Shown one piece after another: positions 3,507 through 60,340 of a stretch of 64,000 nt of DNA (positions are counted from its first letter, which is position 1; each line of letters starts with the position of its first letter). A model generated the notes under the pieces. The model saw only the letters and a program-made list of their open reading frames with translations, was not told where the DNA came from and made no database searches. Source of the DNA: Kineosporia mesophila (GTDB lineage: Bacteria; Actinomycetota; Actinomycetes; Actinomycetales; Kineosporiaceae); the NCBI RefSeq assembly GCF_021129235.1, contig NZ_JAJOMA010000022.1:1-64000 (forward strand), read 5' to 3'. The position numbers were made by a program, and so were the translations under genes.

Positions 3507-5939
<2,433 letters not shown>

Positions 5940-15523: not shown

Positions 15524-18500
15524 ATGGCCGACCTGCACGAGCCGCGGCCTGCCCTCTCCCGCCGCGGTGCCGGACGGCACTCGTCCCCGCAGGCCGCTTC
15601 GCCGCAAGACCCGCAGGAGCCTGAACAACCGGTGGAGTTCGGTGCCTCCGAGCCCCTTCCCGAACGTCCGGGCCGTCCCCGCCCGGCCGGCCGCCGGGCC
15701 GCGGCGATCACCACGCCCAACGGTATGCCGGTGCTCGACGTGCTGCTCTCGAACTGGGAGCGCAGCGGTGAGATCTACCTCCAGGACAAGGTTTCCCCCG
15801 ACGCGGTCGGCCACCGCCCGCTGAGCACCTACCTGCCCGAGTTCAATCAGGACGACACCCAGCCACCGCAGCCCGGAATCCGTTCTGAGCGGCCCGCATC
15901 CGCACCGGTGGCCCCGCCCGCGCCGCAACCTCGCCCGGAAACCGGGCCCGGACCGGCGGCCCAGCCGTACATGTCCCGCGCCGAGCGCCGCCGGGCCGAG
16001 GCCCGCCACGGTGCCCAGGACACCCCGCCCGCCGATGCCTGGTGGCAGGGCGCGGAGCCAGAAGGACGACGTCCGTCCCGGTCACCGGCCCGCGAGGTGG
16101 ATCCGGGGGGCGAGGGCTTCGGCGCCCGGTCGCCGAACGCGGATGTCGGGTCACCACTGGTGGCAAGCGGTTACAGCGATCAAGCAACGGACGAGGTTGC
16201 CGGCGCCCCAGGGTCCCTCACCTCAGGAGCCCCCGGGGACAACCAGCTGGGATCCGGCCACCGAGGACACGCGGAACTCGACGTCAGGTCGCTGGGCGGC
16301 CCGACCCCGGAGCGCTCACACAGTGGACGAAGGGGGTCACGCTCCGGCGCGGAACCCTTCGGTGCGCCGGTCGCCGACGACCCCGGTTCACCGGGGCGGC
16401 GTCCGGGGGCCGCTGGGTCCGACCAGTGGACGCCCGGCGCGGGCTTCGGGGAACCCCGGGAAAACGGTTCACACAGGCGGGGTTCCGGACCAGGTGCCAG
16501 TGAGTTCTGGCCGGGTGCCGGTGAATCGGGTGTGCGGGCGCGTGATGCGGGCGGGGGTGAGCCGGGCGTCGCCGGGAGTGGTCTGGAGCGGCGGGATCCA
16601 GGGTTTGACCGGCCGGGTGCCGGTGAATCCGGTCCGCGGACGAGGGACGCACGGTCTGGTCGCTCGGGTCTGAGTGGTTCCGAGGTGCGGGTGCTGGGTG
16701 CGGACGTCGCGGATCCGGGTGCCGGTGGACGACGCGGGGCGCCGGCTCCGGGGTTAGCGGCCACGGGCGCCCTGGGGTTCGTGTCCCGCATGCCCGACGC
16801 CGATTTCGGTCTGCCGAACGCCGGTGACCTGGGCTCACGGATGCTGGGGGCAGGTCCGCGAGCGCTCGGCGCGGGCCCCGGCTCCCGGACGCCGGGCGAG
16901 AGTCCGGACGAGCCGGAGACCTGGTCCGGTCCCGGACCTTCCGATGCAGGACAACAGTTCTCGGGAAGATCCCGATCGCTCGTGGATACCCCCGCCGGCG
17001 AGCCGGGGGACCAGGAGGAATTCTGGTCGCCGGACGACGCCCGCGGGAATGGCCCGGACCTGTCCTCGGGTCGGCGGTCACGGCCTGAGGACGACCGGGG
17101 CGCCGGTCGTGGTCGGCGGCGGTCACGGGCGTCCGGCGCCAGCTCAGGCGCCAGCTCAGGCTCCAGCTCAGGCTCCAGCTCAGGCTCCGGCTCAGGCTCC
17201 GGCTCTGGCTCCAGCTCCAGCTCCGGGTCCGGCTCCGGGTCCGGCTCCGGGTCCGGCTCCAGCTCCGGGTCCGGCTCCAGCTCCGGCTCCAGCTCCGGGT
17301 CCGGCTCCAGCTCCGGGTCCGGCGAGGATGTTGGATACGGGGGTTCGTCTGGTCACGAGGGTTCAGCCGGTTTCAGGGGCTCAGCCGGTTTAGAGGTGCC
17401 TGACGGTCCCGAGGCGCTCGTCGGCGCCGACGATGCCGCGGCCGGTCCGGAGCAGGGGGCGCTCCAGGCGTTCTGGACCGAAGACGCGCCGATTTCGCAG
17501 CGAGGTCACGCGGGTTCGCGTGGCGGCGACCGTCAGGGGCAGGCTCCCGGGTCTCCCGCGACCCCGCCCGGTTTCCAGAACGTTCAGGGAAGCGTCGGTA
17601 CGGGGGATCCCCAGGCGTTCTGGACCCAGGACCTGCCGATCTCCGGCCGCCGCAACAGTTCTCCCGAACGGGGCGACAACAAGAGCCAGAGCGATAACAG
17701 GCTCTTTGCCGACCACGGGGACGAGGACGGCTTCGGGAACCGGGCCGACCATGCGTACCACCCCAATCACGAGAGCCCGGCTGGCTACGGAGGCCAGGCG
17801 GGTTACGGCTACGACGCCGATGACGAGAACCCAGCCGATGAGGATGACCGGGCCGGTGACCGAGACCGGGCCGGCTACGACGACCGGGCCGGCTACGACG
17901 ACCGGGCTGGTTACGACGACCGGGCTGGTTACGACGACCGGGCTGGTTACGACGACCGGGCTGGTTACGACGACCGGGCTGGTTACGACGACCGGGCCGG
18001 CTACAACGACCAGGCCGGCTACAACGACCAGGCCGACTACAACGACCAGGCCGACTACGACGACTACGAGCCTTCCGACGAGGACGGGCAGGGGCGCGTA
18101 GCCAATGACGGCCCCGGTCGGCGCGATGCCCGGGACAGTCAGCAGTACGACGATCCCGGTCAACCCGGCCGCGGGGCGGCTCGTTCGCGGCCGGCGGCCC
18201 TTGGCGCGGGAGGTCCGTCCGGCGGCGACCATGACGCAGCCGCTGACCTGTCACCGGATCGGCACGGCCAGATGCCTGGCGAGTTCCAGGATGCGTCGCG
18301 GTCATCCGGGGGACAGAACCGCTCCCGCCGGCCGGGGCCCGGTCGCGGTCAGAAGGGCCACGGCCGTCAGCAGCGTGACGAGCGGGCCCACGACGAAGAG
18401 GTCCGCGACGCATCCGACGCCATCTGGCTGAAAGACCTGGCGCGCCCGGCCACCCCGGCAAACCTCTTCCAGCCCCGGCAGCCCGGCCCGCCCCGGTCCC

Positions 18501-19999
18501 CGAACGCCTACTCCCCGAACACCTATGCCCCGAACCAGGGCTCCCCGAACCAGGGCTCCCCGAACCAGGGCTCCCCGAACCAGGGCTCGCCGAACCGGGG
18601 TGCGCTCAACCAGGGCCCGTCGAACCGGGGTGCGCTCAACCAGGGCTCGCCGAACCGGGGCGCGCTCAACCAAGGCTCGCCGAACCCGCGCTCACTCAAC
18701 CAGGGCTTCCCGAATCAAGGCCCTCCGAATCAAGGCCCTCCGAATCAAGGCCCTCCGAACCCGGGCTCGCCGAATCAAGGTTCACTGAACCGGAGCGCAC
18801 CGTACGGCAACCGGGCGGGGCAACCAGGACGTCCACCATTGGCCGGATCCCGACCCGGGCCGTACGCACCGGGCGGGAACAACCAGCCGGGAGGACAGCC
18901 GGGTCTGGCCTGGGTCGACTCGGGGCGCGGCCTGGCCATCGTGCTGGTCGTGTTCCTGCACGCGGCCGGGTGGGTGCAGCAGTCGGCGAGCACGATGCCG
19001 CTGCTCAATGACCTCAACCAGATCGTCAGCACCGTGTGGACACCGCTGTTCTTCATGAGCGCGGGGCTCCTCGCGACCCGTTGGCTGTACGCGTCCTGGT
19101 CGGAACTGTTGTCGCAGAAAGTCTTGTCGCTGGTCTGGGTGTATCTGCTGTGGCAGGTCGTGAGCACCGCGCAGTCGGTGGTCGCCTCGACGTTCACGGG
19201 TGCCTCGCTGGGCCCGGCGAGCCTGCTGACGTCGCTGGCCCTGTCCCCGGCCCGACCGGCGTTCGAGCTCTGGTTCGTCTGGGCGCTGGCCATCTTCTTC
19301 GTGGTGGCCCGCCTGTGCTCTCGCTTCCCGCTGGCACCGCAGCTGGCGGTGGGCGCGCTGATGGGGGCGCTGACGTTCTCCGACCTTATCCCCGCGATCA
19401 ACCTGGGCTGGAGCGGTACGCCGAGCTACTACCTGTTCTTCCTGATCGGCTGCTACTACCGCCAGTTGCTGCAGATGCTGGCGGATCGCTTCACCCCGAA
19501 GATCGCCCTGGGCGCGGTCGGGGGCTGGCTGCTGATCTCCACGCTGGTCCACGTCACCGGTCTGGACACACTGCCGGTGGTCGGGGTGATCGTGCGCCTG
19601 CTCGGACTGGTGGCGGGTGTCGGCGCGGCCGTGCTGCTGCAGAACGTGCAGCTGCTCAGCTATCTCGGCGCCCGCACGATCCCGATCTATCTGGCCCACA
19701 CCCCGGTGATCGTGCTGCTGGTGGCGGTGCTCCACCCGATCGTGGGCTCGGTGCCGGCCCTGTCCTGGATCCTGCCGTTCGCCCTGACGGTGCCGGCGAT
19801 CTGGCTGGCGCTGAAACTGTACGACACGGTGATGCGGACCCCGCTGCGGTTCATCTACGAACCGCCCGAGAACCTCACCGACCTGATCCGCAGCACCGTG
19901 GGACAGCGTCGCGGCGGGGCCGAGAGGCTGCCTCCCGCGCTGGTTCCGGGGCTGGTGCGCCAGCCGTTCGACCGTCAGATCGAGAGCGTTCTGATGTAG
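15524..19999 (+). CDS. Giant acyltransferase-3 family membrane protein with long repetitive N-terminal region
   Basis: This 1,491-residue protein ends in a multi-pass membrane domain, residues about 1127-1450, that begins [20 protein letters not shown] and includes [10 protein letters not shown] and [20 protein letters not shown]. This fits the acyltransferase-3 family (OafA/WecH-like), which moves acyl groups onto surface sugars. Ordinary members are about 350-400 residues. Here about 1,100 hydrophilic, probably disordered residues precede it, with a Gly/Ser tract (about 536-600), a RAGYDD array (782-847) and an N-[QRP]-G array (1004-1093). A repeated motif QAFWTxDxPIS also appears twice. 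ATG 15524 has GAGGAG upstream. No signal peptide is seen, so the long region is probably cytoplasmic. The frame is unbroken. Confidence 0.85.
17131..17323 (+). repeat. Gly/Ser-coding low-complexity tract
   Basis: About 64 codons are nearly all Gly or Ser, built from short GGCTCC/AGCTCA/GGGTCC units. It forms a flexible spacer inside the acyltransferase gene and is a likely site of length change. Confidence 0.9.
17867..18064 (+). repeat. 18-bp coding array, 11 units (RAGYDD type)
   Basis: Eleven in-frame 18-bp units encode [RQ]-A-[GD]-Y-[DN]-D. Units 3-7 are identical at DNA level, while the outer units differ, a pattern expected of recent expansion from the middle. Confidence 0.95.
18533..18802 (+). 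repeat. 15-bp coding array, 18 units (NQGSP type)
   Basis: Eighteen in-frame pentapeptide units of the form N-[QRP]-[GRS]-x-[PLS]. [10 protein letters not shown] and NQGPP variants are grouped, which suggests higher-order duplication. It ends about 30 residues before the membrane domain. Confidence 0.93.
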
Positions 20000-24023: not shown

Positions 24024-26600
24024 ATGCTGATTGCCCTAATCGCGACGGGAGCTACGGCCGTGGCGGCCGCGGGTGTGGCCTTCGCGGCCGCTGCGCGCGA
24101 GCCGGCCTACCGGCGGGGCACCGTGCTGTCGGGAGTGGGTTTCCTGGTCTGGGGCGGCGCCTCGATCGCCGTTCTCCAGGGCCTGCCGGACGTCTGGTTC
24201 TGGTGCCTACTGCGGCCGCTGGTCCTGGTCCTGTTCCTGTTCGGCACGGTCAACAACCCGGCCTCCCACCTGACCGGGCGTGACTACGCCGCGATGCTGG
24301 CCGACGGCTGGCTGGTGATCGCCAACCTGGTCGGGGTGGTCTGGATCGCCGCCCGCTACCAGAACGTCATCGGGGTGCGTGAGCACGTCGTCCCCACTTT
24401 GTTCTGGATCTTCCCGCTGATGCTGCTGGTGGGCCTGGCCACCGGCGTGGCCATGCGCACCCTGCCCACCGACCGCCGCGGATCGCTGGTGGCCATCGGC
24501 TCGGGAGCCGTGTCCCTGACGGGCGACCTGGTCGGCCTGGCCACCCGGACCGAGCTGGCCGTGCCGTTCTGGGGAGCGGCCTGGGTGCTGCTGGCCCTCA
24601 CCACCCGGATGGATGACGGCCGCGTCTACAGCCGTCTCGCCCTCGACCCGCGCCCGCGCACGCTGCGCCTGTGGCAGCTGCCGGTCCCGCTGGCCGTGAT
24701 CCTGATCTTCGTCCCGGTCGGCACCGACCCGGTCGTCGGGGTGGTGCTGGCCGGTACCTCGGTGGCCGCCTGCGCCGCCCTGGTCAACCAGTCCCGGCGC
24801 ACCGAGGAGCTCTGGCAGGACCTGACCGCGCGCAGCCAGCTCTACGAGGAACTGCTGGAGAACACCCAGGACGTGATTCTCCAGGTCGACGACTTCGGCG
24901 TGATCGAGTTCGCCAACCCCGCCTCCGACCGGGTGCTGGGCATGCGCCCGGAGCTGCTCGTCGGCACCACACTGCTGGACTACCTGCACCAGGACGACCA
25001 GAAGATGTCCCGCGTCGTGGCCGGCGCCCCGCAGTGGCGCCGGGGCGAGCAGCGCGTGGAGACCCGTTTCCTGCCGGTCGTTCCGGGGATGCCGCCGGAG
25101 CCCGCGACCCGGACCGAGCCCCGCACGGCGGGCCTGGTCGGCAACATGTGGGCGGCGGACGAGTCGCGGTGGCGGGTGATCGAATGGGCCATCACGCCCC
25201 GCGAGGACGGTGGCGCGGTGCTGGTCGGGCGGGATGTCTCCGATCGGGTACGGATGCAGACCGAACTGGTGGACGCCGCGCAGACCGACGCTCTCACCGG
25301 CCTTCTCAACCGCACGGCTTTCCTCGAGGCGGTCAACGCCCGGCTCGCCTCGGGTCAGCACGCCGCCGTCATGTTCATCGACCTCGACAACTTCAAGGAG
25401 GTCAACGACACCATGGGCCACGCCGAGGGCGACCGGCTGCTGCACCGCGCGGCCGAGTGCCTGCGGCAGGCGGCCGGCCCGGGTGACTCGGTGGCCCGGC
25501 TGGGCGGTGACGAGTTCGCGGTGATGCCCGCCTCCGTCGACCCGGACGAGGCCAAGGCCGCCGCCGACGCGGTGATCACGGCCTTCAACGGGTTCGACGA
25601 GACGGCGCACGGGCGGCCCTCGGTGTCGGCGAGTCTCGGCCTGGTGGTGGCCGACCCGGTGGTGACGCACACCGCGCGCGAGGTACTGCGAGACGCCGAC
25701 CTGGCGATGTACCGGGCCAAGCAGCGCGGGGGCGCCGGCGTGGTGGATTTCGAGCCGTGGATGTCCGAGCGCGTGATGGAGCACCACCGGCTGCGCGGCG
25801 ACCTGGAGACGGCCGTGCGCGACGAGAGCCTGGCGATCTACCTGCAACCGGTCGTCGATCTGCACACCCGCCAGTGGGAGGGCTTCGAGGCCCTGGTGCG
25901 CTGGCCGGTCGGTGCCGAGACCTGGTCGCCCGCGCAGTTCCTGCCGGTCGCCGAGGAGAGCGGCCTGATTGTGCCGATGGGGGCCTGGGTGCTGCGGGAG
26001 TCGCTGCGCCAGCTGTCCGGCTGGCGCGACCCGAAGCTCGGCATGGCGGTGAACGTCGCGGCCGCCCAGCTGGTCGGCACCGACTTCTACGACGTCACCA
26101 TGCAGGCGCTCGCCGACAGCGGTGTCGCCCCCGGCCGGCTGACCCTGGAGATCACCGAGCAGGCCGCGATCCAGGACCTGGGCCGCACCGCCTCGCGCCT
26201 GGACATGCTGCGCTCCGAGGGCGTGCACGTGGCGATCGACGACTTCGGCACCGGCTTCTCGTCGTTGCAGTACCTTTCCCGGCTGCCCGTCGACATCCTC
26301 AAGATCGACCGCAAGTTCGTCTGGGGCCTGGGCCAGCAGGCCGAGGACGACGTGCTGGTGCGTTCCATGCTCGGCCTGGCCGCGGAACTCGGCCTCGAGG
26401 TGATCGCCGAGGGCGTCGAGACCCGGCGTCAGGCCGAGCTCCTGCTGGAGTACGGATGCCGTCTGGCCCAGGGCTTCCTGTTCTCCCCGCCCCGCCCGAT
26501 CGAGGAGCTGCGGGCCAGCGACCCCTTCGTCAGCCCCGCCCCGCCCATGCTCTCGGTCCCGCAACCCCGCCGGGCCAGCACCGAGCGAGTCACGGGCTGA
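24024..26600 (+). CDS. Membrane PAS-GGDEF-EAL protein
   Basis: This 858-residue protein starts with about 250 residues of hydrophobic helices, then a PAS domain (LLENTQDVILQVDDFGVIEF, about 275-400), a GGDEF domain with intact GGDEF at about 494 and an EAL domain with FEALVRW at about 622. TDALTGLLNR opens the GGDEF part and IDDFGTGFSSLQYLSRLPVD lies in EAL. It should make or break cyclic di-GMP in response to a membrane or PAS signal. ATG 24024 has AGGTGG upstream. It follows ilvD and precedes a similar gene of different N-terminal sequence; the dispersed palindrome lies between them. Confidence 0.92.
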   Translation: MLIALIATGATAVAAAGVAFAAAAREPAYRRGTVLSGVGFLVWGGASIAVLQGLPDVWFWCLLRPLVLVLFLFGTVNNPASHLTGRDYAAMLADGWLVIANLVGVVWIAARYQNVIGVREHVVPTLFWIFPLMLLVGLATGVAMRTLPTDRRGSLVAIGSGAVSLTGDLVGLATRTELAVPFWGAAWVLLALTTRMDDGRVYSRLALDPRPRTLRLWQLPVPLAVILIFVPVGTDPVVGVVLAGTSVAACAALVNQSRRTEELWQDLTARSQLYEELLENTQDVILQVDDFGVIEFANPASDRVLGMRPELLVGTTLLDYLHQDDQKMSRVVAGAPQWRRGEQRVETRFLPVVPGMPPEPATRTEPRTAGLVGNMWAADESRWRVIEWAITPREDGGAVLVGRDVSDRVRMQTELVDAAQTDALTGLLNRTAFLEAVNARLASGQHAAVMFIDLDNFKEVNDTMGHAEGDRLLHRAAECLRQAAGPGDSVARLGGDEFAVMPASVDPDEAKAAADAVITAFNGFDETAHGRPSVSASLGLVVADPVVTHTAREVLRDADLAMYRAKQRGGAGVVDFEPWMSERVMEHHRLRGDLETAVRDESLAIYLQPVVDLHTRQWEGFEALVRWPVGAETWSPAQFLPVAEESGLIVPMGAWVLRESLRQLSGWRDPKLGMAVNVAAAQLVGTDFYDVTMQALADSGVAPGRLTLEITEQAAIQDLGRTASRLDMLRSEGVHVAIDDFGTGFSSLQYLSRLPVDILKIDRKFVWGLGQQAEDDVLVRSMLGLAAELGLEVIAEGVETRRQAELLLEYGCRLAQGFLFSPPRPIEELRASDPFVSPAPPMLSVPQPRRASTERVTG

Positions 26601-26635
26601 AGCCCGCCTCTCCCGGAGCGACCCTGCCCAAAACC

Positions 26636-26724
26636 TTCCGTGATCATGCAAAACCTCCCCGGCGTTCTAGAACTCCAAGCGAGAGAGTTCTAGAACTCTG
26701 GGGAGGTTTTGCATGATCACGGAA
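26636..26724. repeat. Dispersed 89-bp palindromic element, copy 1
   Basis: Outer arms 26636-26660 and 26700-26724 pair over 25 bp without mismatch. Inner arms 26664-26675 and 26685-26696 pair over 12 bp and contain TTCTAGAA. A 3-base internal bulge separates the two stems, and the apical loop is 9 bases. A nearly identical element lies at 59690-59774. It sits 36 bp after the stop of the preceding gene. The remaining gap to 26879 also holds a short TGATCAC/GTGATCA inverted repeat near 26775-26800. Confidence 0.95.
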
Positions 26725-26879
26725 AGGGGGTTCTGGCGGATGCTCGCGGGCGCTGTCCGGCCGCCCCTCATCCGTCCCTGATCACCCGGAAAAACCGCGT
26801 GATCACTGACAGTTGAGACTCCCCGCGTTCGTGGCATTTCGGCGCTTACGGTGCCGGGCGCCCGGATACTGTCGTCACC

Positions 26880-29603
26880 GTGGTGCCGGCGATGCTGATG
26901 GCGGCCGCGGCCGTGGTGGCCGGGGCCGCCTGGACGTATGCCTTCGTGCGGACGCTGCGTCGTCGTCCCGGCCTGCTCACCCCCACGATCGCGATCGGGG
27001 GCCTGTGCTGGGCGCTCGCTTCCGGGGCCGCGCGGCTGCTCGACCCCTCGGACTCCCTGGCGGCCGGGCAGACCACCGATTTCCTCATGGTCATCGCGGC
27101 CGGCGGGCTGCTCACCGCGACCGCCGGCACCGCCGACCGGATCGTGCCGGTGCGCCGGCCCGGTATCGGTGTCGCCGAGGCCGCGGTGCTGGCGTTCAGC
27201 ACCGCGACGCTGGTCTGGCTGGCCGTCGACGCACCGCTGTGGCTCCCGTCCAGCACCGCGTTCGCCCTGCTGCCCGCCGTGCTCGACCTGATGGCGCTGC
27301 TGGCGATCCTGCGGCTGCCGACCCGCACCTCCTCGCGCACGTCGCGGGCCGGGCTGATCGGCTACGTCGGGCCGGAGGGCAACCGCACCCCCGGCCGGTC
27401 GTGGGGCCTGCTGGTCACCGCCCTGACCGGGGTGCTCGCCGCCGACCTGCTGCGCGGCACCCGCATCACCGGAGCCGGCATCCCGCAGTGGCCGCACGTG
27501 TCCGACGCCGGGCTGGTGCCGGTCGTGCTGACCTCGTGCGGGCTGCTGGTGCTCTACAGCGTGCGGCTGGCCCGGTTCCGCGGCCCGGCCACCCCGGCCC
27601 GGCACGAGAAGTCCGCCGACGACGTCCATTTCCTGCCCCGCCGCCGCGGCCGGGTGGTGCCGTACAGCGTCGCCCTGGCCGCCACGTCGGGGGTCGTGAT
27701 CCAGGCCGCCACCAGCGGCACCGGTCCGATCCCGCTGTTCGGCCTGGGCTGCCTGGGCGTGGCCTTCGCGGTCTGGCAGACGTTCCTGCTGCTGGAGCAG
27801 GACGATCTGCTGAGGGGTCAGGTGGAGGCCCGCCGGCAGCTGGGCGCCCTGGTCGAGAACACCAGCGACCTGCTGCTGCGGCTGGACACCCACGGCCGCA
27901 TCGTCGCCGTGAACGCCGCCGCCACCCGCCTGCTGCACCGGCCACCCGCGTCCATTGCGCATCGCCCCTTCGAGGAACTCGCCCGCACCGAGGACCAGCG
28001 CCGGGTGCGCGAGGCGGTGCTGGAGGTGACGCGGGGACACCGCGACTCCGCGCAGATCGAGGTGCGCCTGGCCGCGCCCGCCACCGGCACCGCTCAGCTG
28101 CGGCTGCGGGCCGTGGACGGCGGCGCGGTGGCGAACCTCAATGACGTCACCGACTCGGTGGAGCTGCGGCAGCGGCTGGAACGCCTGGCCCGGTTCGACC
28201 AGATGACCGGCCTGGCCAACCGCAGTCATCTGCTGGACGAGGTGAGCACCTGGCTGGACGCCTCCGACGAGGGCGAGATCGCCGTGCTCTACGCCGATCT
28301 GGACGGGTTCAAGGCGGTGAACGACCGGTTCGGTCACGCCGCCGGCGACCGGGTGCTCGTCGACGTCGCCGCCCGGCTGGACGCGGTCGCCGGGGGAGTG
28401 GACGCCCGGCGGCGGATCATCTCCCGGGTCGGGGGCGACGAGTTCATCCTGGCGCTGGAGGGCCTCGGGCCGGACACGGCCGCCACCGCCGCACAACGTC
28501 TGGTCGAGGCCGTGGCCCCGCCGTTCCGGGTGGTCGGCCGCACCGTGCAGCTCGGGCTCAGCGTGGGCGTGGCGCACTGCGACGGCCGTCACGACGTCTC
28601 CGCCTCGACCCTGGTGCACCGGGCCGACCTGGCGATGTACGCGGCCAAGTCGGACGGCCGGGCCCGCTACGAACTCTGGCAGCCCGAGCTGGACGCCCGG
28701 GTGCGCCGCCGGGTCGACCTGGCGCTCGGTCTGCGCGAGGCCCTGGAACGGGGCCGTCTCGCCGTGGCCTACCAGCCGATCGTGCGGCTGTCGGACGGCC
28801 GGGTGCAGGGGGTCGAGGCCCTGCTGCGTCTACCCACCGGCGTGGAGCACAGCCTGGCCGGCCTGGTCAGCCCGGCCGAGCTGGTCGAGGTGGCCGAGGA
28901 CACCGGCGCCATCACCGAGCTCGGCGAGTGGGTGCTGCGACAGGCGGTCACCCAGGCCGCGGGCTGGGCCCGGCGCGGCTACGGGATCTCGGTCAGCGTC
29001 AACATGTCCGTGGCCCAGCTGGTCTCGCCGGCCTTCGTGGAACTGGTCACCGGGATGCTCGAGGCCACCGGGCTGCCCCCGTCCCAGCTAGTGCTCGAGA
29101 TCACCGAGAGCCAGCTGGTCGAGCACTCCGGCCCGGCGCCCCAGGCCCTGCAGGCGCTGCGCGACGCCGGTATCCGCCTGGCCATCGACGACTTCGGCAC
29201 CGGCTACTCCTCACTGTCGTACCTGCGCCGGATGCCGGTCAGCACGGTCAAGATCGACCGTTCGCTGCTGGCCGGGCTGGGCACCGACCCGCGCGCGGCC
29301 GCCCTGCTGGGGGCCGTCGTCGCGATGGCCCGCGGGCTCGACCTGGCCGTGGTGGCCGAGGGCATGGAAGACCTGGCCACGGCCCGGGCCCTGCGTGATC
29401 TCGGGGTGCAGGCCGGGCAGGGGTTCGCCCTGTCCAAGGCCCTGCCGGCCTCGGAACTGCGCCGCCTGCTGCAGTCCGGGCCGATCGACCTGGAAGACCC
29501 GCCCGCACCGGAAAACGGACCCAGGTCAGGAACGATGGATCTGCCCGTTTCCGCCGCACCCGTGCCGTTGCCCGAGGGGCGGGCAGACCGTCTCAGCCAG
29601 TGA
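26880..29603 (+). CDS. Membrane PAS-GGDEF-EAL protein
   Basis: A 907-residue protein with about 300 N-terminal residues of hydrophobic helices, a short PAS-like domain (LVENTSDLLLRLDTHGRIVA, about 320-430), GGDEF intact at about 518 (SRVGGDEFILAL) and EAL at about 646 (GVEALLRLPTG). It belongs with the preceding gene in domain order, but the N-terminal part is distinct. FDQMTGLANRSHLL and IDDFGTGYSSLSYLRRMPV are family motifs. The start is GTG 26880; ATG 26892 and 26898 are alternatives. It is followed by the ilvB leader region. The net enzymatic direction and signal are unknown. Confidence 0.9.
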   Translation: MVPAMLMAAAAVVAGAAWTYAFVRTLRRRPGLLTPTIAIGGLCWALASGAARLLDPSDSLAAGQTTDFLMVIAAGGLLTATAGTADRIVPVRRPGIGVAEAAVLAFSTATLVWLAVDAPLWLPSSTAFALLPAVLDLMALLAILRLPTRTSSRTSRAGLIGYVGPEGNRTPGRSWGLLVTALTGVLAADLLRGTRITGAGIPQWPHVSDAGLVPVVLTSCGLLVLYSVRLARFRGPATPARHEKSADDVHFLPRRRGRVVPYSVALAATSGVVIQAATSGTGPIPLFGLGCLGVAFAVWQTFLLLEQDDLLRGQVEARRQLGALVENTSDLLLRLDTHGRIVAVNAAATRLLHRPPASIAHRPFEELARTEDQRRVREAVLEVTRGHRDSAQIEVRLAAPATGTAQLRLRAVDGGAVANLNDVTDSVELRQRLERLARFDQMTGLANRSHLLDEVSTWLDASDEGEIAVLYADLDGFKAVNDRFGHAAGDRVLVDVAARLDAVAGGVDARRRIISRVGGDEFILALEGLGPDTAATAAQRLVEAVAPPFRVVGRTVQLGLSVGVAHCDGRHDVSASTLVHRADLAMYAAKSDGRARYELWQPELDARVRRRVDLALGLREALERGRLAVAYQPIVRLSDGRVQGVEALLRLPTGVEHSLAGLVSPAELVEVAEDTGAITELGEWVLRQAVTQAAGWARRGYGISVSVNMSVAQLVSPAFVELVTGMLEATGLPPSQLVLEITESQLVEHSGPAPQALQALRDAGIRLAIDDFGTGYSSLSYLRRMPVSTVKIDRSLLAGLGTDPRAAALLGAVVAMARGLDLAVVAEGMEDLATARALRDLGVQAGQGFALSKALPASELRRLLQSGPIDLEDPPAPENGPRSGTMDLPVSAAPVPLPEGRADRLSQ

Positions 29604-49256: not shown

Positions 49257-50012
49257 GTGAACAAGGCAGATATCGTTGAGATTCTCCAGGAGCGCCTCGG
49301 TGGCCGTCAGTCCGCCGCCGACGCCCTGGACGCCGTGATCGACACCATCACCCGCGCCGTCGTCCGTGGCGAGAAGGTGACCATCAGCGGTTTCGGCTCC
49401 TTCGAGAAGGCCGTCCGCAACGCTCGTACCGGCCGTAACCCGCGTACCGGCGAGAAGGTCCGCATCAAGAAGACCTCGGTCCCGCGTTTCCGCGCCGGCA
49501 CCTCGTTCAAGGCGTACGTCGCCGAGCCGCGCACCCTGCCGAAGCCGGTTGCCGGTTCGACCCGCGCCGCCACCACGCGTGGCGTGGCCGCTGCCGCCAA
49601 GGCCGCCACCCCCACCCGCGCCACGAAGACCACGGCCGCGAAGAAGACCACGGCCACCAAGGCTGCTCCGGCGAAGACCACGGCCGCGAAGACCACCGCC
49701 GCCAAGACGACGGCCGCGAAGACCACGGCCGCCAAGAAGACCACGGCCACCAAGGCCGCTCCGGCGAAGACCACCGTGGCCGCGAAGAAGACCGCGACCA
49801 AGGCTCCCGTCGCCAAGAAGGCCCCGGCCACGAAGGCTGCCCCGGCCAAGACCACGGCGGCGAAGACCACCGCGGCCAAGACCACCACGGCCCGCAAGAC
49901 CGCCGCGAAGAAGACCGCCACCACGGCTTCCCGCAGCACCGCGGCCGCCAAGACCCCGGCCCCGACCGCCGCGAAGCGCACCACCACGCGTCGTCGCAGC
50001 ACCACCGCCTGA
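49257..50012 (+). CDS. hup: HU-family nucleoid protein with Lys/Ala-rich tail
   Basis: A 251-residue DNA-binding protein. Residues 1-90 are a standard HU fold (NKADIVEILQERL, ISGFGSFEKAVRNARTGRNP, VPRFRAGTSFKAYV). The remaining 160 residues are lysine, alanine and threonine repeats such as AAKTTAAKTTAAK and ATKAAPAKTT, like the histone-H1-like tail of mycobacterial HupB and streptomycete HupS. Such tails compact DNA and are modified in some species. GTG 49257 follows GGAGG. Small DNA repeats in the tail make its length variable. It sits between leuCD and murA. Confidence 0.95.
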   Translation: MNKADIVEILQERLGGRQSAADALDAVIDTITRAVVRGEKVTISGFGSFEKAVRNARTGRNPRTGEKVRIKKTSVPRFRAGTSFKAYVAEPRTLPKPVAGSTRAATTRGVAAAAKAATPTRATKTTAAKKTTATKAAPAKTTAAKTTAAKTTAAKTTAAKKTTATKAAPAKTTVAAKKTATKAPVAKKAPATKAAPAKTTAAKTTAAKTTTARKTAAKKTATTASRSTAAAKTPAPTAAKRTTTRRRSTTA

Positions 50013-59074: not shown

Positions 59075-59695
59075 ATGAGCGCGCAGGATCAGACCGAGCA
59101 CGACACCGAACCGGCGCAGGCCGTCAGGCCGGGCGCCGTATCCGCGGAGTGGTCCGCGCCGACGCCGCCGGATCTGATAGCGCTGAAGGAGCAGGTCTTC
59201 GACCCGCTGGGCATCGTCTGCACCGGCCTCACACCCGAGGCTGCCGCCGAGAGCGCTGAGTACGCCGCGCACAAGGTCCGCCTCGACGGGGCCCCGGTGC
59301 GACTGCGGTCGGCCCGTAAGACCCCGGAGAAGAACGGCCTGTTCGTCACCCTCTGGCTGCGCCGTCCGACCGGGACGATCCGGCCGTTCGCGGTCGGGGA
59401 CAAGGTGCGCCTCTTCGTCGTCACCGCCCGCGAGGACGATCACTTCGGGCACTTCGTCTTCCCGGCGCAGACCCTGGCCCGCCAGCGGATCCTCTCTTCC
59501 CCGGAGGCGGAGGGGAAGCGGGCGTTCCGGGTCTATCCGCCGTGGTCGGCGCCGCACAATGCGCAGGCCGCCCGCACCCGCAGCTGGCAGCGGGAGTTCT
59601 TCCTGCCCCTGGACTCGGCCACCGGGGTGGACCTGGACCGGGCCCGGCAGCTCTACGCCCCCGCCGGCCCGCCAGCAACCCCCAACCTTCCGTGA
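59075..59695 (+). CDS. MepB-family protein
   Basis: A 206-residue protein of the MepB family, named from Staphylococcus aureus mepRAB but without known function. It shows the motifs GLFVTLWLRRPTGTIRPF, then DHFGHFVFPAQTLARQRIL and GKRAFRVYPPW. There is no signal peptide or membrane segment. The N-terminal 40 residues are an acidic extension. Start ATG 59075; the frame is open upstream, but with no conservation. The stop TGA at 59693-59695 lies inside TGATCA of the dispersed palindrome, so the element sets the C-terminus. Confidence 0.8.
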   Translation: MSAQDQTEHDTEPAQAVRPGAVSAEWSAPTPPDLIALKEQVFDPLGIVCTGLTPEAAAESAEYAAHKVRLDGAPVRLRSARKTPEKNGLFVTLWLRRPTGTIRPFAVGDKVRLFVVTAREDDHFGHFVFPAQTLARQRILSSPEAEGKRAFRVYPPWSAPHNAQAARTRSWQREFFLPLDSATGVDLDRARQLYAPAGPPATPNLP

Positions 59696-59774
59696 TCATG
59701 CAAAACCTCCCCGGCGTTCTAGAACTCACACGGCAAGAGTTCTAGAAGTCCGGGGAGGTTTTGCATGATCACGG
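59690..59774. repeat. Dispersed palindromic element, copy 2
   Basis: Outer arms 59690-59712 and 59752-59774 pair perfectly over 23 bp, with an inner TTCTAGAA stem (59716-59727 with 59737-59747). The outer arms and the left half are the same as copy 1 at 26636-26724, including the left-hand GGC bulge; the apical loop and the last bases of the inner right arm differ. It overlaps the end of the MepB-like gene and is convergent-side to rpmB. Confidence 0.95.
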
Positions 59775-59845: not shown

Positions 59846-60031
59846 TCAGCGGCTGACCTTGCCGGCCTTCAGGCAGGAGGTGCAGACGTTGACGCGCTGC
59901 GGCGTGCCACCGATGGTGGTGCGGACGCGCTGGATGTTCGGGTTCCAGCGACGCTTCGTCCGGCGGTGCGAGTGAGAGACGCTGAAGCCGAAGCCCGGCC
60001 CCTTCTTGCAAACGTCGCAGTTGGCGGCCAC
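59846..60031 (-). CDS. rpmB: 50S ribosomal protein L28 (zinc-ribbon C+ form)
   Basis: L28 (61 residues) is part of the large ribosomal subunit. Two CxxC pairs, CDVC and CTSC, mark the zinc-binding C+ form; many actinobacteria also carry a zinc-free paralogue used under zinc limitation. [18 protein letters not shown] is the RNA-binding core. The GTG at 60031 is chosen because AGGAG lies six bases upstream; it abuts the ATG at 60037. It is divergent from the DAK2 gene, as usual in actinobacteria. Confidence 0.95.
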
Positions 60032-60340
60032 GTTCATCTCCTGAGGTATCGAACTGATGCTTGGTGCGGGCGGTCATGTCGCTATTGCCCGGCGGCACTT
60101 GGGCCGCCGCGGGCAGGGCAGACCTACCACGCTCCCGAGCAGAGTAGCCGAAGCGCAGGCCCGGGCCCAAACCGGCGTCAGCGACGGCACCGGGGCCGAG
60201 ATCGGCCTCCAGGTGACAGGTCCGGGCAATCGGTGTCCAATTCCGATGAACGGTGCATGAATGGCAGGTGAGCCCGGCGGGCGGATACATTCCGGCTGAA
60301 GCGGAATCTCGATCGGTGCCGACCAGTGGGAGGAGTGCGG
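60032..60340. other. Intergenic region between rpmB and the DAK2 gene
   Basis: No gene is supported. It should hold divergent promoters. TACATT at 60286-60291 is a possible -10 box for the DAK2 operon, and ATTCCG/CGGAAT at 60289-60307 forms a small dyad with a 7-base loop just downstream. Confidence 0.4.

Follow-up and report, generated by a model that had tools for sequence, protein, structure and literature searches.

Among described repeats, the palindromes analysed here come closest to REPINs (REP-BIMEs), which occur together with RAYT (TnpA-REP), for example in Pseudomonas fluorescens SBW25, and which are described in the available accounts as inverted conserved sequences that enclose a diverse spacer and form a hairpin (PMC3116915, PMC8049555, PMC8266576). 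Our palindromes share with them two conserved inverted sequences, a short and highly diverse spacer, the hairpin, compensatory changes, many extragenic copies and lone arms. They differ in that there is no GTAG here; the 10-nt sequence GTGATCAWGC lies at the base of both arms, bordered by C-rich and G-rich flanks, and no Y1/RAYT gene was found in the two genomes that carry them. The family probably works like REPINs but lacks two features that define these, the GTAG tag and RAYT.

A second group, the CGTC-tagged REPs, resembles our family in its short palindromes with a conserved terminal tag, in its varying stems and in the fact that no dedicated transposase is known. In the available text these REPs carry CGTC at one end only and have stems of 8-9 bp, whereas here both ends read CGTGATCA and the outer stem comprises at least 22 bp; Proteobacteria, Chlorobi, Bacteroidetes, Spirochaetes and Thermotogae are listed there, and the word 'actinobacteria' does not occur in that text (PMC3733652). 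Finally, Term-seq has documented terminators with few U's in Streptomyces, with stem covariation reported. Like these I-shaped or intrinsic terminators of GC-rich actinobacteria, our palindromes are very stable hairpins behind genes with a weak or missing U-tract and, in the 44-nt class, covarying stems. Unlike them, for which the available text describes no arm sequence common to genes, they reuse one arm genome-wide, in divergent spacers too (PMC8269248, PMC12207403).

The window, a stretch of 64,000 nucleotides, is part of contig C15 of the host genome (G000; 7.78 Mb, 61 contigs). An earlier note had pointed to two related palindromes in it, and both are present, with 83-nt cores at 26639-26721 and 59691-59773 and 90% identity over 96 nt. 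The two-level stem proposed for them is borne out by the predicted folds, in which a long outer stem leads through a small internal loop to an inner stem around TTCTAGAA. In copy 1, the arms lie at 26639-26660 and 26700-26721, the internal loop at 26661-26663 and 26697-26699, the inner stem at 26664-26674 and 26686-26696, and the loop at 26675-26685; copy 2 has the same anatomy, and no strand is assigned to either. For both strands of the two copies, RNA folding predicts -69 to -72 kcal/mol, with z between about -14 and -15.5 relative to dinucleotide shuffles, and DNA folding predicts z of -13.9 and -15.4. The 16-mer core of the arm has four exact places in the window and one with three mismatches, compared to 0.07 in shuffles, and another copy of the palindrome lies just beyond the window, at position 65391 of C15.

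Copy 1 is bordered on the plus strand by a C-rich, G-poor left flank (26624-26638) and a G-rich, C-poor right flank (26722-26736), the composition found throughout its class. It is located 38 nt behind the end of a gene for a GGDEF-EAL protein (24060-26600, plus strand) and 158 nt before the start of another (26880-29603, plus strand), both assigned by Pfam. In copy 2, a TGA within the left arm (59693-59695, plus strand) is the stop codon of a MepB-like gene (59075-59695). The gene for ribosomal protein L28 (rpmB, 59846-60037; Pfam), which our home-made gene caller had overlooked, lies on the minus strand, so the spacer holding copy 2 is convergent. Compared against a plasmid collection only, L28 is most similar to sequences of Nocardia, Nonomuraea and Tsukamurella, at 73-74%, which makes an actinobacterial host probable. 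A Pfam scan confined to the six genes near the two copies (two EAL/GGDEF, one AIR-synthase-like, the MepB-like gene, L28 and a FakA-like gene) identified no transposase; to the extent of these six genes, the earlier statement that none is nearby stands. In an Rfam search of the window, only two tRNAs exceeded the gathering threshold, and lowering the threshold added 18 rows of miRNA families and one sRNA row, all below gathering.

The two copies belong to a dispersed family. We searched the whole genome and its relatives for the outer arm, as had been suggested, and found a family of well over a hundred hairpins. The window copies are thus not the only two in the genome, a case in which the idea of a family would have failed: the 23-mer arm has 155 + 161 = 316 matches in the host genome at up to three mismatches, and the reversed pattern has 0. 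Counting the palindromes that have both ends gave 60 (inner gap 15-45) and 110 (45-75), about 170, in the host genome and 86 and 80 in its sister genome G005, where a gap of exactly 45 would enter both classes. Twenty-three paired elements were located in the tiled 800 kb of contig C1 and 124 in the whole 2.05-Mb sample. The latter comprise 77 elements of 83 nt, 21 of 44 nt, six of 43 nt, seven of 60-62 nt and 13 of other lengths. By reading, the 44-nt class has the form arm-CCCCGGGG-arm, the 60-62-nt class contains one inner TTCTAGAA unit, and the 83-nt class contains two together with a free loop. Lone arms account for 66 of the 322 arms found at up to five mismatches, a count that includes inside-out pairs.

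Near-identical arms in this family enclose divergent loops. Over 77 full copies the arms agree with their consensus at 98.7%, a figure biased upward because 59 of the 61 sampled host stretches were picked for a listed arm or palindrome; in C1, which was tiled without choice, 218 of 220 mid-arm letters agree in 10 copies. The loops match their consensus at 59.6% (chance 56.1, sd 1.7), and loop cores match between copies at 3.02 of 7 letters (2.98 expected, sd 0.10). The earlier note had the impression that pairing is kept more than loop sequence; in the 83-nt class the arm sequence is itself nearly invariant, and not the pairing alone. Flanks and loop have a weak polarity in common (log-likelihood -3088 vs -3121, sd 15), and the most alike pairs agree at 31 of 41 variable letters; both observations argue for some descent of whole units, and on these grounds we softened the view that the loops lack any common ancestry.

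The flanks of the host copies also have a characteristic composition, with C at 0.50 and G at 0.10 over about 15 nt on the 5' side and the mirror image on the 3' side, compared to C at 0.35 and G at 0.32 in 1418 control stretches behind other stop codons. A specific stem between the two flanks was considered and rejected, since a flank pairs no better with its own partner than with shuffled partners. Complementarity at the edges (flank positions -1, -4 and -6, the internal loop and the first loop letters) is below that of random pairing of the same letters.

Two further arrangements were observed. Inside-out hairpins, in which the arms face outward 10-31 nt apart, occur 10 times in 2.27 Mb, all in G000 (for example L172 9707-9776, L173 4662-4719 and L179 17186-17239), with pairing largely kept by eye. 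Hairpins of the CCCCCAGCCTTCGGCCGGGAGG type are nested inside arms at G000 C1 24776, 205791 and 282274, and of the ten places of this type in the 2.05-Mb sample, nine have a GTGATCAKGC end no more than 80 nt away.

We interpret the palindromes, with a probability of roughly one half, as a REPIN-like population of non-autonomous mobile hairpins without RAYT that is kept mainly in the form of gene-end hairpins. Since GTAG is missing and a search for PF01797 found nothing in either carrier, we liken them to a REPIN population with another mover. The unit would measure about 115-130 bp. From a C-rich, G-poor flank it would run through an arm starting with CGTGATCATGC, a stem particular to the lineage and a free loop to the complementary arm, with a G-rich flank at the far end. 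A putative enzyme other than a Y1/RAYT transposase would recognise the basal tag of the hairpin and copy or move the unit. Copies landing behind genes would be kept, perhaps because transcripts arriving from one side or both are ended or protected by the hairpin, and copies elsewhere would mostly be lost. The constancy of the arms may mean that copying is confined to units with good arms, or that arms are homogenised, with loops and flanks drifting. The weak point of this interpretation is that the loops are almost unrelated despite the apparent youth of the family, which seems to postdate the split from G003; simple copying of whole units from one master predicts otherwise. The unrelated loops could be due either to copying from many old sources or to rewriting of the arms apart from the loops.

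Of the alternatives, the one that survives best, unlikely as we consider it, is that the palindromes represent ordinary hairpins at gene ends, either bidirectional or I-shaped terminators, and that ectopic gene conversion or template switching at quasipalindromes has homogenised their arms among loci, without transposition and with loops and flanks untouched. Identical arms around almost unrelated loops are in keeping with this, and so is the placement of the elements at 3' ends. Of the 124 sampled elements, codirectional spacers hold 59, convergent ones 47 and divergent ones 13, with four more inside a called ORF and one at an edge, whereas spacer length predicts about 64, 19 and 36 for the three kinds of spacer (chi-square p about 8e-13); the genes were called by the home-made caller, trained on G000, and because it overlooked rpmB these counts carry some error. 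Most elements lie just behind stop codons: where a gene end faces the element, as in 106 cases, the stop is at most 50 nt away in 91 (median 16), and in codirectional spacers 50 of the 59 elements are closer to the stop than to the start. In 13 of the 124 elements, window copy 2 among them, the gene's own stop codon is supplied by the TGA of CGTGATCA. The 13 copies in divergent spacers, all of the 82-86-nt class, are by contrast difficult to reconcile with gene-end hairpins, and a search for overlooked small ORFs beside them found none.

These positions also fit the terminator role that the earlier note had considered possible, although a U-tract scan, which allows loops of 3-8 only, calls neither window copy a terminator. 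Compared to bidirectional intrinsic terminators, the stable hairpin shortly behind the stops is present, but a U-tract directly behind the stem is not; the T run sits within the stem and is missing from many 44-nt copies. In Neisseria and the Pasteurellaceae, some terminators are inverted DNA uptake sequences, which also occur singly, in large numbers, inside genes. Our palindromes likewise reuse a short motif, typical of a species or family, as inverted pairs behind genes, but unlike uptake sequences most of their exact ends in C1 (42 of 58) form inward pairs.

We then compared orthologous sites between the host genome and G005, which differ at 14-15% of fourfold sites (G000 and G003 at 32%). 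In C1 1-235k, eight of the ten elements of G000 have a partner in G005, and eight of the ten elements of G005 have one in G000. Five orthologous 83/83-nt pairs, a count that omits sites of differing length or arms (19769, 532239 and others), have changed letters at 1/220 arm, 0/110 inner-stem, 2/30 internal-loop and 11/55 loop positions. Window copy 1 is absent from G003, and its orthologous copy in G005 differs from it in one of 44 arm letters and in two of the 11 letters of the loop; of window copy 2, just a degenerate half is present at the G005 site. In two pairs, C1 1365 and 205791, the asymmetric centre is inverted (by reading), and 1365 aligns inverted.

Three observations at the level of arms and stems favour homogenised terminators. 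At C1 62217, 19769, 526729 and 532239 both arms differ together between the two genomes, and pairing is largely kept. In addition, the check for stem covariation that the earlier note had proposed gave an excess of double changes in the 44-nt class, where 96% of cells pair over 21 copies and 41 two-sided changes were counted (shuffle mean 11.8, maximum 21), but none in the 83-nt class, where the arm sequence is nearly fixed (10 vs 12.5). Finally, two G005 arms 1.1 kb apart have one insert in common that neither arm has in G000. These two arms belong to a site, G000 C1 144962-146086 (L054 4962-6086), at which two half palindromes face each other around a gene for a 319-aa AbiEi_4 protein, which also matches MTES_1575 below the cut-off; in G005 this 1.1-kb segment has the inverted orientation, and the corresponding site of G003 does not contain it.

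Against homogenised terminators, the arms measure 22-36 nt, which is short for conversion of the RecA type, and a gain site in G005 contains a whole new palindrome with its flanks and not a rewritten hairpin. There, at C1:1559782 (160782 in the joined stretch), the palindrome lies between two convergent stops separated by 124 nt. In G000 these stops overlap, and in G003 the distance between them is 4 nt; by parsimony the element was therefore gained in G005. This is the one clean gain, the other cases of presence and absence showing remnants or unclear junctions; losses or degenerate remnants in G005 were found at C1 154645 and 521926.

The arm family is restricted to two sister genomes among those searched. 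With up to two mismatches in 58 genomes, the arm 20-mer has 298 matches in G000, 237 in G005 and one in their nearest relative, G003, and none in three other congeners or in 52 genomes outside the genus, so that two of the six genomes of the genus carry the family. Rooted on paralogues, a tree of a single locus has the topology ((G001,G004),(G002,(G003,(G000,G005)))), and together with the carriers it places the gain of the arm family most simply on the stem of G000 and G005. Plasmid, phage and viral-contig collections contained no match to the repeat. In a genome collection that may omit the host and its near relatives, the exact 19-mer had eight single matches in unrelated bacteria, which we take as chance. 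Among the papers listed in literature searches by sequence string and by topic, none was seen to describe this repeat.

The tag at the base of the arms is more widely distributed. GTGATCAWGC with an inverted partner at a gap of 8-38 was found in 16 of 297 genomes of the order, from nine genera and seven families, and the reversed control gave 0 in all of them. Congeners without the arm family have three (G003), four (G002), one (G001) and no (G004) such palindromes, and G007, from another genus of the same family, has 65. A stricter form, searched in 396 genomes of the phylum, is present in G000 and G013 only. Among the matches listed, the stems on the tag vary from lineage to lineage, and two species belonging to a single genus have different ones. 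The 40 flanks of 20 of the 22 tag loci examined outside the genus (two overlapping loci omitted) have C at 0.60 and G at 0.14, similar to G000, whereas 14 such loci taken whole have C and G at 0.37 each; single loci such as L235 do not show the flank bias. The loci outside the genus lie mostly, not always, behind genes. Nested or extra arms were observed in other families, at L090 (G086), L089 (G034) and L095 (G013), for instance in the form of GTGATCAAGCACT twice per side or of a palindrome with a further arm behind a G-rich spacer.

A tag kept across seven families while the stems change could also mean that the arms are putative sites of a sequence-specific DNA protein (a nucleoid, segregation or termination factor) that reads GTGATCATGC, with the palindrome as a dimer site under ordinary purifying selection. 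The nearly invariant arm sequence of the 83-nt class and the ten inside-out arrangements of the same arm are consistent with such a site. We nonetheless regard it as improbable, since in the 83-nt class the lineage-specific arm beyond the tag is nearly as invariant as the tag itself, and since an occurrence in 16 of 297 genomes, with the arm family absent from most congeners, would be odd for an important site.

Returning to a REPIN-like population without RAYT, we propose tentatively that GTGATCAWGC, like GTAG and CGTC, may mark a large class of palindromic repeats, the third of this tagged kind. Such a class would be spread over the order and carry its own stem in each lineage on the same tag and flanks, and the enzyme copying it would belong neither to the RAYTs nor to the known DDE transposases; the arms would spread or be rewritten largely independently of loops and flanks, and the units could flip or hold a gene enclosed by their arms.

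Regarding the mover, the RAYT-type transposase that the earlier note had suggested looking for did not turn up: a search for Y1_Tnp/RAYT (PF01797) gave 0 matches in both G000 (97.2% complete) and G005 (99%), one in G004, which has no arm family, and was positive in 5 of 14 control genomes. Reading by eye the translations between facing arms in 2.27 Mb of the two genomes revealed no transposase, and no parent element sharing these ends was found in those 2.27 Mb. As for a GTAG tag beside the palindrome, the pooled flanks of 78 full copies have G at 0.00 at position -4 and at 0.01 at -1, the commonest last three flank letters being CTC, TTC and GTT. Direct repeats above the level of shuffled flanks, as expected of target-site duplications, were not detected around 78 full and 27 short copies. 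The AbiEi-like cargo protein was considered as mover and rejected: one close copy each is present in G000 and G005, with remote homologues alone elsewhere, and it is not a transposase.

A classical MITE, which would have arisen by fusion of the terminal inverted repeats of a DDE-type insertion sequence, itself either lost or not sampled, is very improbable: the long inverted repeats, the length of about 83 nt, the dispersed and lineage-specific occurrence and the cargo gene between two facing arms would suit it, but the missing target-site duplications, the nature of the cargo protein and the lack of a transposase between facing arms in 2.27 Mb speak against it. Of the REP- or MITE-type family put forward earlier, the dispersed family remains, and from what was found here neither a strict REP nor a classical MITE describes it.

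If our preferred reading of a mobile, RAYT-free population is right, a group of GC-rich bacteria obtains gene ends from a REPIN-like replicator, and the route from selfish repeat to gene-end hairpin is open to test. The two sister genomes, with their gains, centre inversions and arm swaps, would then make the multiplication of short palindromes without a visible transposase directly testable. The common tag makes the search for an enzyme or a binding protein concrete.

Apart from the palindromes, the window contains tandem repeats of 12-18 nt at 49571-49987, 18470-18829, 17095-17352 and 5709-5873, perhaps parts of low-complexity proteins. At the start of the contig, positions 1-90 of the window consist of 30-bp tandem copies, two of them identical and the third at 77%.
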